NCBI GenBank assembly: GCA_000995065.1
Contig: LBWX01000003.1
Location: 114,835 to 153,283 of the forward strand
Origin: a candidate division CPR2 bacterium GW2011_GWC2_39_35
GTDB lineage: Bacteria; Patescibacteriota; CPR2
DNA length: 38,449 bases
Reading direction: 5' to 3'
This document shows, in pieces, positions 300-11,585 of the stretch. How positions within the stretch are numbered: position 1 is the first letter of the stretch; the number at the start of each line of letters is the position of its first letter. Under the pieces are notes generated by a model. That model had not been told where the DNA came from, did not search any database, and worked only from the letters and a program-made list of their open reading frames with translations. The position numbers and the translations under genes were made by a program.

Positions 300-1838
300 A
301 TGCTAAAATACTTCATCTATTGCAGAAAGTCGTCCGAAGAGGAAGAACGGCAGATTTTATCTATTGAAGCCCAACTCCAAGAGTTAAGAGACTATGCCAG
401 GCAAAACAATCTTTTTGTAATTAAAGAATATACCGAAAGCAGGACAGCTAAAGAGCCGGGCCGACCAATATTTAATCAAATGCTTTCTGAAATGGAAAAA
501 GGGAACGCTTCGGGAATTTTAGCGTGGAATCCAGATAGGCTTGCTAGAAACAGTATTGATGGAGGGAGGATTATTTATTTGGTAGATACAGAGAAAATTA
601 AGGCGCTAAAATTCCCCACCTTCTGGTTTGATACCACTCCTCAAGGAAAGTTCATGTTAAGCGTTGCCTTTGGACAAGCCAAGTATTACACCGACAATTT
701 AAGAGAAAACATTTTAAGAGGCATAAGACAAAAGTTAAGGCGTGGCGAATTGCCGGCAAAAGCTCCCCTTGGCTACTTTAACGAGCCAAGACTACGAACC
801 ATTGAACCCGACAAAGCAACCTTTAACAAAATGAAAAATATCTTAGAGCTTTTTGCCAAAGGAAACCACACCATAACAGGGATCCAAAAAGAAATGTTTT
901 CTCTTGGCTTGGCTTCAAAAACCGGAAAACCTATTCATTTGTCTTCTATTGGGTCAATGCTCACCAATCCTTTTTATTATGGTTATTTTAAATACAGAGA
1001 TGAGCTTGTTAAGGGAAGCCACAAGCCAATGATTTCCAAGAAACTCTTTGACCAGATTCAGGCATCTTTAGACTCAAACGGAAAACCCCGAAAAGTTAAA
1101 AAACCACAAGCTTTTGATTTTCTTAACTTTGCCCTGTGTGGCGAATGCGGTTATTCCATTACGGCAGAAAAACACGTAAAAAAGAGCGGGTTAAGGTTTG
1201 TATATTATCGCTGTACCCATAAAAGCAAAGTAAAGATTTGTGGGCAACGTGGTTTTTTGCGTGAAGAAGAATTAGCCGAACAAGTTATCAATATTTGTCA
1301 AAAAGTTTCTATTCCCGATGAATGGAGAGATAAGTTTCTTGGGAAGGTGGCTGAGTGGGAGCAAGAACAAAACGACTCTTCGGGAACTTTTGCTCAAAAC
1401 ATAAAAGAGAAGATGGGAGGGGTGGATATAAAGATAGAACGTTTATCGGAAGGGTATCTTGAAGGCGCTTTTGAACTGCCGGAATACCATGAAAAGAAAA
1501 ACCAGCTTGTCGAACAAAGAAAGGATCTGGAAGAAAAACTTGAGTGTTTTGAGCAAAAAGGAAATCATTGGCTCGAACTCCTGAAAAATTGGATTTTGGA
1601 AGCCAACCAAGCAGGAAATCTTGCCAAAACAAAAAATTTCCCCGGAATGAGGAATTTCTTGAAAACCGTCGGCTCGAACCGCATTTTAATAGGCGGAAAG
1701 TTGAAGATAAGTTTTAAAAAAGAATACGATTTACTCCGGAATTTGCCTGAAGAAGCAAGGGGCGAAACCCCAGAGTGGACCCGATCGGGATCGAACCGAC
1801 GACCTCTTGCGTGCCACGCAAGCGCTCTGGCCAGCTGA
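300..1838 (+). CDS. Large serine recombinase (site-specific integrase/invertase)
   Basis: DNA strand-exchange enzyme of the large serine recombinase family. The N-terminal resolvase domain (about 1-150) shows the Y-x-R-x-S signature (YCRKS, catalytic Ser11) and the DRLARN segment. Then come a Recombinase domain (PLGYF, about 150-260), a zinc ribbon with CGECG and a later YRC...C pair (about 275-320), and a charged coiled-coil region (about 340-440). At 512 residues it is a normal length. A GGAGGG site 6 nt upstream supports the ATG. The last roughly 20 residues are antisense to the tRNA-Ala gene and the stop lies inside it, so the natural C-terminus may end earlier or change with the state of the element. 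The 99-bp inverted repeat overlaps its 3' end. No other phage or element genes are visible. Family certain; role as integrase or invertase inferred. Confidence 0.93.
   Translation: MLKYFIYCRKSSEEEERQILSIEAQLQELRDYARQNNLFVIKEYTESRTAKEPGRPIFNQMLSEMEKGNASGILAWNPDRLARNSIDGGRIIYLVDTEKIKALKFPTFWFDTTPQGKFMLSVAFGQAKYYTDNLRENILRGIRQKLRRGELPAKAPLGYFNEPRLRTIEPDKATFNKMKNILELFAKGNHTITGIQKEMFSLGLASKTGKPIHLSSIGSMLTNPFYYGYFKYRDELVKGSHKPMISKKLFDQIQASLDSNGKPRKVKKPQAFDFLNFALCGECGYSITAEKHVKKSGLRFVYYRCTHKSKVKICGQRGFLREEELAEQVINICQKVSIPDEWRDKFLGKVAEWEQEQNDSSGTFAQNIKEKMGGVDIKIERLSEGYLEGAFELPEYHEKKNQLVEQRKDLEEKLECFEQKGNHWLELLKNWILEANQAGNLAKTKNFPGMRNFLKTVGSNRILIGGKLKISFKKEYDLLRNLPEEARGETPEWTRSGSNRRPLACHASALAS
1676..1774. 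repeat. Right arm of the 99-bp inverted repeat
   Basis: Exact inverted copy of 1-99. It lies inside the 3' coding part of the serine recombinase and ends one base before the discriminator base of the tRNA-Ala gene at 1776. Confidence 0.95.
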
Positions 1839-1849
1839 GCTACGGGCCC
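1776..1849 (-). tRNA. tRNA-Ala (anticodon GGC)
   Basis: Reading the minus strand, the acceptor stem GGGCCCG pairs with CGGGTCC and contains the G3:U70 pair that identifies alanine tRNAs. The D-arm region reads TAGCTCAGCTGG. The anticodon stem CTTGC/GCAAG encloses GTGGCAC, giving U33, anticodon GGC and A37. The T arm contains GGTTCGATCCC. CCA is not encoded. The recombinase ORF overlaps it on the opposite strand. tRNA 3' ends are common integration sites for such enzymes. Confidence 0.96.
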
Positions 1850-8498: not shown

Positions 8499-8527
8499 TT
8501 GACAAAAATGAAAAAATATGGTAGAGT
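8499..8527 (+). promoter_or_regulatory. Promoter of island unit 1
   Basis: TTGACA (8499-8504), 17 bp, TAGAGT (8522-8527). It opens a run of plus-strand units that contrasts with the minus-strand flanks. Confidence 0.75.
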
Positions 8528-8602
8528 TTACGCCATACAATCGACAAAATGATTGTTTGACATAAATAGAAAGACCGAAAGAGCAAGAAAGAAGTGGTTT
8601 AA

Positions 8603-8899
8603 GTGAAGCGACACTATCCTTTTAAAAAGCAAGGTCTAGCAAGGGATAGCAAACAAGTGATTATAGCGATTATAGCAATACTCGTAATCACAATCGTCGC
8701 AAATGCTGTTCACGAGATGCACACAATGGATATCAAGATGGGACCAAACGGGTTTTTTCAACTAATAGGCGACATCATCGATATTCTCCAAGGCATCTTG
8801 AACAGAAACGGCATCAAAGAAATTCAAAAAAATATAAAACTTTCATATAGCATCAGGGGGACAAGAGCAGGAAAAAAACCTGCTCTTTTCCATTTTTAA
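8603..8899 (+). CDS. Small membrane protein of unknown function (98 aa)
   Basis: Not recognised. GTG start; the only upstream purine-rich stretch is AAGAAAGAAG, so translation may be weak. A basic N-terminus (residues 1-17) precedes one hydrophobic helix (about 18-36, [18 protein letters not shown]), then an amphipathic stretch with [17 protein letters not shown]. This suggests a single-pass protein with a cytoplasmic basic head. The last dozen codons coincide with the terminator hairpin 8863-8887, which is odd for a coding region. The promoter and terminator define a transcript of about 360 nt. An alternative is that the transcript is mainly an RNA. Confidence 0.5.
8863..8896 (+). terminator. 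Terminator of island unit 1
   Basis: AAGAGCAGG (8863-8871), a loop of seven A, CCTGCTCTT (8879-8887), then TTCCATTTTT. It overlaps the 3' end of the 98-codon frame. Confidence 0.85.
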
Positions 8900-8932
8900 A
8901 TACCCTCTTTATCGCTCCCCGAAGCTTTATTA

Positions 8933-8961
8933 TTTACAATCGATTACTCTTATGCTAAAAT
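8933..8961 (+). promoter_or_regulatory. Promoter of the structured RNA unit
   Basis: TTTACA (8933-8938), 17 bp, TAAAAT (8956-8961), placing the transcript start near 8968. Confidence 0.72.
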
Positions 8962-8981
8962 ATTTTTACATACAGGAACAC

Positions 8982-9026
8982 ATGGATATTGAAAGGATAG
9001 TGATCTATGAAAACTACTTGAACTAG
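8982..9026 (+). CDS. Possible 14-codon ORF at the 5' end of the structured RNA
   Basis: ATG at 8982 with AGGA four bases upstream; the peptide reads MDIERIVIYENYLN. It stops one base before the first long helix of the RNA (9027). The position would suit a leader peptide whose translation affects RNA folding, but an ORF this short can arise by chance. Confidence 0.25.
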   Translation: MDIERIVIYENYLN

Positions 9027-9378
9027 GCTTCTGCGGACAAGATAGCTGATCCCCTGTTTTTACAAAGGCAGATAGCTGTCCCGCACCTTCCCACAAAACT
9101 GTTGTCAGACTGGGACTAGGCAGAAGCAACGACTGGTAAGGTAAAGCAATTTCCACTACAAAGGAGTCTATTTTGCATCGGATACCAATCACAATATTTG
9201 TGCAAATCAAGAGCGTCGTCAGCGCAGACTAAAGCAGCGGTGCAGGCCGGGTAAGCCGAGTTGCGCAACCAAGAGACGAAACATGAATCTTAAGTTGTAG
9301 GCACTAATTACCCTAATTTCAACGGCCAAAAAGGAAAGTTAAGTTTGAAAGTTTTCATCTTGGACCCCACTCGGGTTC

Positions 9379-9486
9379 AACCAGGGAAATAGCCCCACCA
9401 AACACTACCTCGCAGTTTACTGCAAAACACGAAGATTCAATTTTCGTAGTTCGTAGTGTTTGGTGGATGGTCCCTGGTTTTTTTAT
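9379..9486 (+). terminator. Branched terminator of the structured RNA
   Basis: Outer stem AACCAGGGA (9379-9387) with TCCCTGGTT (9471-9479) followed by T residues. Inner perfect 14-bp stem 9395-9408 with 9453-9466 (CCACCAAACACTAC). Inside it are two small hairpins (GCAG-TTTA-CTGC and CGAA/TTCG). Confidence 0.82.
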
Positions 9487-9504
9487 TTATGATAAAACAA
9501 CCGA

Positions 9505-9533
9505 TTGACATCAAAATAAAGGTTTGATACATT
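9505..9533 (+). promoter_or_regulatory. Promoter of the microprotein operon
   Basis: TTGACA (9505-9510), 17 bp, TACATT (9528-9533), about 50 bases before the first start codon. Confidence 0.6.
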
Positions 9534-9582
9534 TACCAAAACTAAAAGACCGCAGAACCTTAAAAAACCAAAGGAGATAGCT

Positions 9583-9732
9583 ATGGAATTATCCTTCACT
9601 AACATTTTTATTCTTCTGCTGCTTGGCAAAATTGCCGCCCTTTTCTTTGCCAGGCAAATACTCGCCCTATTACTGGTATTTATCGGCACAATGATCGAAA
9701 TCTCTTGGAAAATATACCCGGAAAAAGGATAA
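9583..9732 (+). CDS. Microprotein 1, hydrophobic (49 aa)
   Basis: Not recognised. AAGGAG lies 6 bases before the ATG. The 49 residues are almost entirely one or two hydrophobic helices (about 8-22 and 25-40: IFILLLLGKIAALFF and ILALLLVFIGTMIEI) with a short basic tail WKIYPEKG, so it should sit in the membrane. First of four consecutive small genes on one transcript; the stop is immediately followed by the next ribosome binding site. It could be a toxin-like, transporter-accessory or phage-type small membrane protein; nothing visible decides between these. Confidence 0.7.
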   Translation: MELSFTNIFILLLLGKIAALFFARQILALLLVFIGTMIEISWKIYPEKG

Positions 9733-9744
9733 GGAGGTAAAACT

Positions 9745-9882
9745 ATGATAATAGTCCTAGGCACTCCAGTTGATTATCCATTAATCGCGCGGTCAACCAA
9801 AAAAATACTTGAAGTAATCTTTTCAATGTTGATGCTAATAGCAATAGCGCTACTTACAAATGAAGGAGAAATTCGAGGATAA
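9745..9882 (+). CDS. Microprotein 2, single membrane helix (45 aa)
   Basis: Not recognised. GGAGGT (9733-9738) directly follows the previous stop and lies 6 bases from the ATG, close to an ideal site. Residues 1-20 are mixed (MIIVLGTPVDYPLIARSTKK), residues 21-37 are hydrophobic (ILEVIFSMLMLIAIALL), and the tail NEGEIRG is charged. Probably a small single-pass protein. The tight stop-to-ribosome-site spacing indicates coupled translation with its neighbours. Confidence 0.68.
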   Translation: MIIVLGTPVDYPLIARSTKKILEVIFSMLMLIAIALLTNEGEIRG

Positions 9883-9896
9883 GGGAGGTGAAATAT

Positions 9897-10058
9897 ATGA
9901 CAAGGATTGGCTTACTCATCATCGCAATTGGTCTTCCAGCTATAGCAATCGTCATCACCCCAATGGGTGATCTGATGCGCGGCATTACAAAGGCGTCTTG
10001 GGCGTATACCTTCACAAGCCGGGCACACAGAGCAACGGAACGGGCATACATAGGATAA
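9897..10058 (+). CDS. Microprotein 3, N-terminal membrane helix (53 aa)
   Basis: Not recognised. GGGAGGTG ends 6 bases before the ATG. Residues 4-21 form a hydrophobic helix (IGLLIIAIGLPAIAIVIT). The remaining 30 residues are polar and basic (RAHRATERAYIG at the end). This looks like an anchored cytoplasmic tail or an uncleaved signal anchor. Third gene of the operon, 14 bases after microprotein 2. Confidence 0.65.
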   Translation: MTRIGLLIIAIGLPAIAIVITPMGDLMRGITKASWAYTFTSRAHRATERAYIG

Positions 10059-10084
10059 ACAATCGAAGGAGAACAGGATTAGCA

Positions 10085-10189
10085 ATGAAAAAAATATTTA
10101 AGAAGCTAGTCGTCGTCGCATTTTTATTTGAAGTTTACACCGCCACAGAATACCTAGAGCTACACACGAGTATCAAAGCTTATGGCTAA
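10085..10189 (+). CDS. Microprotein 4 (34 aa)
   Basis: Not recognised. The ATG at 10085 is preferred over an in-frame ATG at 9998, which lies inside microprotein 3: AGGA is 6 bases upstream and GGAG lies slightly further. The sequence begins MKKIFKKL, then a short hydrophobic stretch VVVAFLFEV, then a polar end. Shortest member of the operon. The stop is followed at once by GGAGG, but no ATG, GTG or TTG comes next. Confidence 0.55.
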   Translation: MKKIFKKLVVVAFLFEVYTATEYLELHTSIKAYG

Positions 10190-10199
10190 GGAGGCAAAA

Positions 10200-10274
10200 A
10201 TCACACAATTCACGAAATCTCAAAAAGCATCAAAAAACCAGCTAGAGACTAACAAGCCTCTCACCAAAAACTAG
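10200..10274 (+). other. Possible fifth microprotein with an ATC start
   Basis: GGAGG (10190-10194) stands 5 bases before ATC at 10200. From there 24 codons are open and stop inside the terminator hairpin. The peptide is polar and Lys/Gln/Asn-rich. ATC starts are rare, so this is speculative; the ribosome site could also be a leftover. Confidence 0.2.
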
Positions 10275-10285
10275 CTGGTTTTATC
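10234..10285 (+). terminator. Terminator of the microprotein operon
   Basis: AAAACCAGCTAG (10234-10245) pairs with CTAGCTGGTTTT (10271-10282), with a minor inner GAG/CTC pairing, then ATCTTT. Confidence 0.8.
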
Positions 10286-10301: not shown

Positions 10302-10330
10302 TTGACCCCAAAGCTATTATCAGGTAAAAT
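10302..10330 (+). promoter_or_regulatory. Promoter of the short leader-like unit
   Basis: TTGACC (10302-10307), 17 bp, TAAAAT (10325-10330), just downstream of the previous terminator. Confidence 0.7.
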
Positions 10331-10355
10331 ACCTTGGAAACTAAAAGGCAAAATA

Positions 10356-10415
10356 ATGCTTACGCTAAATTTTCTAAAGAACAAGAAATCAAAGAAAAGC
10401 TTCCGGGAAAGGTAG
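10356..10415 (+). CDS. Possible 19-aa basic peptide
   Basis: ATG preceded by AAGGC at 9 bases; the peptide is MLTLNFLKNKKSKKSFRER. Seven of its 19 residues are Lys or Arg in the second half. It lies between a good promoter and a terminator about 30 bases after its stop, as a leader peptide would. It has no known homologue that I recognise. Confidence 0.3.
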   Translation: MLTLNFLKNKKSKKSFRER

Positions 10416-10443
10416 TTTAACTTTAGTAAGCCTCAAAAAGACC

Positions 10444-10482
10444 AACCGCCTTCCAGGAAAATCCGCCAAAAGGTGGTTTTTT
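10444..10482 (+). terminator. Terminator with two mutually exclusive hairpins
   Basis: GGTGGTT (10472-10478) followed by T residues can pair with AACCGCC (10444-10450), or GGTGG can pair with the nearer CCGCC (10463-10467) through an AAAA loop. Either fold ends in the same T run. It lies about 180 bases before dapA. Confidence 0.6.
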
Positions 10483-10547
10483 AATAGCTTGCGACCTGCT
10501 GTTAAGAATCGAGAAAATTTCTAACACTAGCTCACAAGTATTGCAAA

Positions 10548-10559: not shown

Positions 10560-10661
10560 CAAAATTACGAATCAACCGCGATAAAGGAGGCGCGGCAACG
10601 AGAAAGTATCAGCAGCAAGGATTGTTTTGAAAAAGAAAACTCTACCGAAAGGATGATTGGC

Positions 10662-11585
10662 ATGAAACCTTGGGAACTTCTCGGATGCATCGTAGCAATG
10701 GTAACTCCATTCTTGCCAAATGATAGCGAGACGCTGGATGAGGAGGGATTGCGCAAGCTCATTAATTATCTCATTGCGGATCAGCAAGTCTCCGGAATCG
10801 TCCCTTGCGGAACAACGGGCGAGGCCCCTACTCTCACCCACGAAGAACATCTCGACGTCATAAGGATTACAGTAGAAGAAGTAAATGGCAGAGTGCCCGT
10901 AATTGCCGGAGCCGGATCAAACTCCACCAGAGAGGCAATCGAGTTAACCAAAGCCGCCGCCAGCGCGGGCGCGGACGCTACTCTTCAGGTTGGACCATAC
11001 TACAACAAGCCGAATCAAGTTGGGATCATTAAGCATTTCGAAAAGATCGCCAACGCGACCGATCTCCCGATCATTCTCTATAACATCCCCGGACGAACGG
11101 GCAAGAACATCGAACCCGAGACAATCGTCAAACTGTCAAAGGAGTTTCCAACCATCGTTGCCCTTAAAGACGCGTCAGGCGACCTCAACCAAACGATGAA
11201 AGTCATCGAGGGGACTCTGGCTTCCCGTTTCCACGTATATTCCGGGGACGATAGCCTAACTCTCCCGATCCTCAGCATCGGAGGACATGGGGTAATCTCG
11301 GTAGCCGGTCTTATTATGGGCAAAGAAATCCAAAACATGATTGATCTTGCACTTAACTTTCAATACGGCACCGCCATGGAAATCCATTACGATCTCTTGA
11401 AACTAATGAATGCATTGTTTGTCGAACCAAATCCGGCGCCGATCAAACAAGCGTTAAACTGGATGGGTCTTCCGGCAGGACCGGTCAGGCTTCCGTTGGT
11501 CGATATTTCTCCAATGAGTCAAGAACTCCTGAGGAATGAACTTGTGCGGCTCAACAAAATCGAGGAATTTGTACAACCAAGTTAG
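10662..11585 (+). CDS. dapA: 4-hydroxy-tetrahydrodipicolinate synthase-like aldolase
   Basis: Class I aldolase of the DHDPS/NAL family; DapA condenses pyruvate with aspartate semialdehyde in lysine and diaminopimelate synthesis. Visible: CGTTGEAPTLT (residues 49-59) in the pyruvate site, Tyr140 and Arg145 in LYNIPGRTG, Schiff-base Lys169 in ALKDASGD. These favour DapA over other family members. 307 residues, full length. The ATG at 10662 is chosen because AAAGGATG upstream uses the ATG at 10653 as part of its ribosome site. No other lysine gene is in the window. Its base composition is clearly richer in G+C than the core genes, which suggests transfer. It is the only enzyme in the plus-strand island. 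Confidence 0.9.
   Translation: MKPWELLGCIVAMVTPFLPNDSETLDEEGLRKLINYLIADQQVSGIVPCGTTGEAPTLTHEEHLDVIRITVEEVNGRVPVIAGAGSNSTREAIELTKAAASAGADATLQVGPYYNKPNQVGIIKHFEKIANATDLPIILYNIPGRTGKNIEPETIVKLSKEFPTIVALKDASGDLNQTMKVIEGTLASRFHVYSGDDSLTLPILSIGGHGVISVAGLIMGKEIQNMIDLALNFQYGTAMEIHYDLLKLMNALFVEPNPAPIKQALNWMGLPAGPVRLPLVDISPMSQELLRNELVRLNKIEEFVQPS

Follow-up and report, generated by a model that had tools for sequence, protein, structure and literature searches.

We tentatively read positions 8968-9486 of the window (the whole 38,449-nt stretch of DNA analysed here, part of contig C3; the genome measures 1.12 Mb) as a small transcription unit whose untranslated RNA of about 510 nt would have little structure in its body and would most probably owe any activity to base pairing. 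It is reasonable to see a discrete, gene-free transcription unit in this region, and an orphan small transcript is plausible. A new large structured RNA, which the original prediction had placed here, is not supported. The promoter and terminator were read from the sequence; transcription, its start site and any function are inferred.

A predicted transcription unit without a gene

The predicted transcript is encoded on the + strand (8968-9486), is about 510-520 nt long and has neither a coding frame nor a detectably structured body. The 17-bp-spaced promoter of the original prediction was recovered as a sigma-70-type site, TTTACA-17-TAAAAT (8933-8961, + strand), with 10 of 12 consensus matches and an extended -10 element (TG ahead of the -10), and the transcript would start near 8968. 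Since the upstream ORF ends in its own terminator, the RNA needs a separate start, and the extended -10 promoter is present to provide one. Promoter-like sites are nonetheless common by chance, with 9 found in 2.3 kb versus about 5.6 expected in shuffles.

At its 3' end the unit carries a branched intrinsic terminator (9379-9484, + strand) in which an outer stem, the perfect 14-bp inner stem (9395-9408/9453-9466) that had been predicted and two apical hairpins form a structure spanning 9379-9479, with a T7 run at 9478-9484. Its folding z score is -7.49 over 115 nt and -8.39 over 111 nt, and its folding energy is the lowest among 979 T-tract sites in 271 kb of contig C3. Apart from loci that the searches gave, the genomic background came from contig C3 only, each stretch being analysed separately. 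Because a T run is missing from the reverse strand, the terminator functions on the + strand only. Among the elements that the original prediction named, it is the only one clearly above chance.

Only six promoter-to-terminator units without an ORF were found on contig C3, and the RNA unit alone among them combines an extended -10 with a terminator below -20 kcal/mol. The region might instead be a functionless spacer, the remnant of sequence that decayed between a terminator and a promoter, any transcription of it being no more than a by-product. We consider this rather doubtful, given that the exceptional terminator serves no gene but only the RNA unit, even though 39 stretches of 350 nt or longer on contig C3 lack an ORF, promoter-like sites arise readily by chance and conservation was not found anywhere searched.

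The absence of a long gene was borne out: no + strand ORF in the RNA exceeds 19 aa, which is shorter than in 99% of shuffles. The three forward frames have codon scores of -0.10, 0.00 and -0.26, compared with 0.19 (sd 0.10) for genes and a mean of -0.12 for intergenic sequence, and no codon signal was detected in any of the six frames. Frames were also translated with X at stops and compared with Pfam, and no match was obtained for the whole 8983-9389 frame, for two further + frames or for one - frame of 8901-9500. A pseudogene was therefore rejected, there being neither a Pfam match nor a codon signal in six frames. It is also unlikely that the RNA is a messenger for very short peptides, namely MDIERIVIYENYLN (8983), MHRIPITIFVQIKSVVSAD (TTG, 9173) and MKVFILDPTRVQPGK (TTG, 9345). 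MHRIPITIFVQIKSVVSAD is preceded by an AAGGAG site and MKVFILDPTRVQPGK by an AAGGA site, with its stop just ahead of the terminator inner stem; two of the three thus have Shine-Dalgarno sequences of 5-6 matched bases, as in about 6% of shuffles, and the adjoining operon also encodes microproteins. Such a messenger would, however, depend on TTG starts, carries no coding signal, stands barely above chance and has no relative against which its peptides could be compared.

Fold of the RNA body and search for relatives

The whole unit has a folding z of -3.7, and the stretch 8995-9486 one of -4.4. The whole-unit value is due to the terminator, as z comes close to zero once the terminator is removed (-0.23 and -0.28, i.e. 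as in dinucleotide-shuffled sequence). Likewise, 120-nt sliding windows give z values between -1.2 and +1.2 up to the terminator, and then -7.5. The ORF-free stretches of contig C3, several of which contain tRNAs or rRNA, have a mean z of -2.0. The claim of a large structured RNA was thus not borne out, with a z of -0.28 for the body versus -5.1 for the genome's own tmRNA and -4.6 for its RNase P RNA, both used as positive controls, although such a score is compatible with a fold that proteins or tertiary contacts stabilise.

Two elements on which that claim had drawn exist but at chance level. The perfect 8-bp helix GCTTCTGC (9027-9034)/GCAGAAGC (9120-9127) is present, yet 35% of shuffles have an 8-bp helix inside 110 nt. 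Similarly, AGATAGCTG does occur twice, at 9040 and 9070, but a repeated 9-mer is found in 28% of shuffles. The helix would close a possible, weakly supported three-way-junction domain (9027-9127, + strand), whose z is -2.4 with boundaries picked post hoc and -1.95 with looser boundaries.

A search with the Rfam covariance models, which the original prediction had proposed, matched no family. With Rfam 15 there was no match in the RNA at gathering score and none in lax searches, the best chance match reaching 17.6 bits versus the 63 needed. The reported lack of RNase P, tmRNA and SRP signatures was confirmed by covariance-model searches. Since the tmRNA (C5:18930-19309, 146.5 bits) and the RNase P RNA (C2:288397-288840, 112.3 bits) are found elsewhere in the genome, we rejected a hidden copy of either; a hidden SRP RNA was rejected because neither RF00169 nor RF01854 has a match in the genome or, at E <= 10, in the region.

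The genome itself, estimated to be complete, has no SRP RNA of these two families and no Ffh M domain (PF02978), whereas Ffh was found in 14 of 14 control genomes; RF00169 was found in none of 40 Patescibacteria. This lineage may be without SRP, or its SRP parts may have diverged strongly.

No homologue of the RNA was detected by blastn in 40 relatives or in phages or plasmids, and none that was convincing in 380 Patescibacteria genomes, where weak matches, the best of them covering 34 nt of the terminator at 2.7e-4, were judged to be due to chance. Pattern searches of viral contigs gave nothing beyond one isolated 17-mer, which was judged likewise. A single-sequence covariance model spanning the 5' domain (9021-9133) matched only itself in the 380 genomes and the loci retrieved. 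As far as these data reach, the RNA appears to be private to its species, and with no homologue found its body gives no sign of selection. In a limited literature search, we found no small-RNA work on this lineage.

It is quite unlikely that the RNA founds a new class of large structured RNAs in which the fold does the work and the 9027-9127 three-way junction forms one domain. The case mainly illustrates that a large structured RNA cannot be deduced from a strong terminator plus an ORF-free stretch. The GC content of 0.44 (upper part of the intergenic range), the z of about -2 for the 5' domain and the unusually short + strand ORFs would fit such an RNA, but the folding z of the body is far from the values for tmRNA and RNase P RNA in this genome, no Rfam family matches, and neither the 5'-domain covariance model nor blastn yielded a homologue.

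Genomic setting and the downstream microprotein operon

The RNA stretch is flanked by the L19 gene, which is divergent and on the minus strand, and by dapA (10653-11585, dapA equivalog 347 bits), in a series of mini transcription units that comprises 8499-8899, the RNA itself, 9505-10283 and perhaps 10302-10483. Judged by ribosomal protein L19, the closest relative with a name is CPR2 bacterium GW2011_GWC2_39_10 (Patescibacteria), in which the L19 gene is present. The sequence upstream of L19 differs there from that of the window and blastn found no copy of the RNA, and a conserved gene order was therefore rejected.

Other features of the contig may be mentioned. The GC content of dapA (about 0.48-0.52) is clearly higher than that around it (about 0.37-0.44), and the gene was possibly acquired by transfer. 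At 300-1849 of the window, a serine recombinase gene (300-1838) ends at a tRNA-Ala gene (1775-1849, minus strand), an arrangement that suggests integration of an element at this tRNA. Outside the window, contig C3 also carries Rfam matches to a c-di-GMP-II riboswitch (L069:11378-11463, minus strand, 62.4 bits) and to a SAM riboswitch (L070:13755-13875, minus strand, 44.8 bits, barely above the Rfam cut-off).

The unit immediately downstream of the RNA (9505-10283, + strand) is a microprotein operon with a promoter at 9505-9533, ORFs of 49, 45, 53 and 34 aa in a row (9583-10189), perhaps a further ORF of 30 aa, and a terminator-like repeat at 10234-10282. The original prediction spoke of four membrane microproteins; the four ORFs are there, and those of 49, 45 and 53 aa have good Shine-Dalgarno sites and clear transmembrane segments, but the 34-aa product is only moderately hydrophobic. 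For all four the proposed frame outscores both of the remaining forward frames, though the absolute codon scores lie below those of most genes. Pfam, PHROGs, NCBIfam and PADLOC gave no family for the microproteins. These orphan proteins have no relatives in the 380 genomes beyond their own and, for two of them, none in viral contigs. If transcribed, the RNA would be an orphan small RNA beside an island of orphan membrane microproteins.

The suggestion that the RNA regulates or works with this operon found no support. Its pairing with the operon is at or below chance overall, for which reason an action on the operon by pairing was rejected, and no alternative pairing partner rivals the terminator. 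It is very unlikely that the RNA is a leader whose branched terminator acts as an attenuator, regulated read-through switching the operon on: despite a terminator directly upstream of the operon and a short ORF at the RNA 5' end (8983-9027), the operon has a promoter candidate of its own (9505-9533), and attenuation was rejected for want of a competing helix, the best upstream competitor for the terminator 5' arm, equalled in 73% of shuffles, reaching -15.9 versus -38.6 kcal/mol for the native pairing.

Candidate antisense pairing and comparison with known systems

Given that the body has little intrinsic structure, the action of the RNA, if any, would most likely be via base pairing. A poorly structured body would leave sequence exposed, and the RNA might then pair as an ordinary small regulatory RNA does, rather than work as a folded machine. 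The leading candidate partner, marginally supported, is the start region (8593-8626) of an ORF in the upstream mini transcription unit (8499-8899, + strand), which consists of a promoter (8499-8527), the ORF (8603-8899) and a terminator (8859-8897). This ORF of 98 aa has one transmembrane segment, a GTG start and a weak ribosome site. With its stop codon placed inside the T run of the unit's terminator, the ORF may have an mRNA that reaches no further than that codon. The mRNA region 8603-8858 folds above shuffles (z -4.2).

A 5' segment of the RNA (8989-9019, + strand) is complementary to 8593-8626 through helices of 14 bp and 9 bp and is a candidate antisense seed of marginal significance. 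Positions 8989-9002 pair with 8612-8625, and the complementarity is in register around the GTG start. Pairing there would silence the upstream ORF at translation initiation. The longer duplex has an energy of -37.7 kcal/mol, which 2 of 175 control gene starts reach, and compared with shuffled RNA the 14 bp + 9 bp helix has a p of 0.005-0.01. Pairing that is equally good occurs in 2.3% of ordinary 326-nt stretches of contig C3; with looser alignment scoring 43% of shuffles match it, and windowed duplex energy gives a p of 0.13. In predicted folds, each of the two sites is in part already paired. The weak ribosome site of the upstream ORF and the place of its stop codon also count against this reading. 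Since several neighbours were tested for pairing, we treat this result as a lead only. There is a slim chance that a type I toxin-antitoxin-like pair of the CPR2 lineage lies within the island of orphan membrane microproteins, with the RNA as antisense partner and the upstream single-membrane-span protein as its counterpart.

Like the large structured RNAs of Rfam, such as tmRNA and RNase P RNA, the RNA is a few hundred nt long and has its own transcription unit; unlike them, it matches no covariance model and, outside its terminator, shows no surplus of folding stability. In the type I toxin-antitoxin-like pair TimP/TimR, 18 nt of complementarity link the 5' region of the sRNA with the 5' region of the timP mRNA (PMC7667032). 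As in that system, a small membrane protein lies here beside a candidate antisense RNA with 5'-to-5' complementarity and an intrinsic terminator. TimR and timP are, however, divergent and their homologues keep the complementarity (PMC7667032), whereas here the arrangement is tandem, the RNA is about 510 nt long, the 14 + 9 bp pairing is near chance and toxicity is only conjectural. With DinQ/AgrB (PMC3567139) the RNA shares an antisense stretch at its 5' end, its own promoter and terminator and an adjoining gene for a single-membrane-span peptide. It differs in having about 23 paired positions in two blocks and a tandem arrangement, read from sequence alone, in contrast to the 30 of 31 complementary nt and the divergent arrangement of AgrB and dinQ (PMC3567139). 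Thus, TimR/timP and AgrB/dinQ resemble the candidate pairing in its place, not in its extent.
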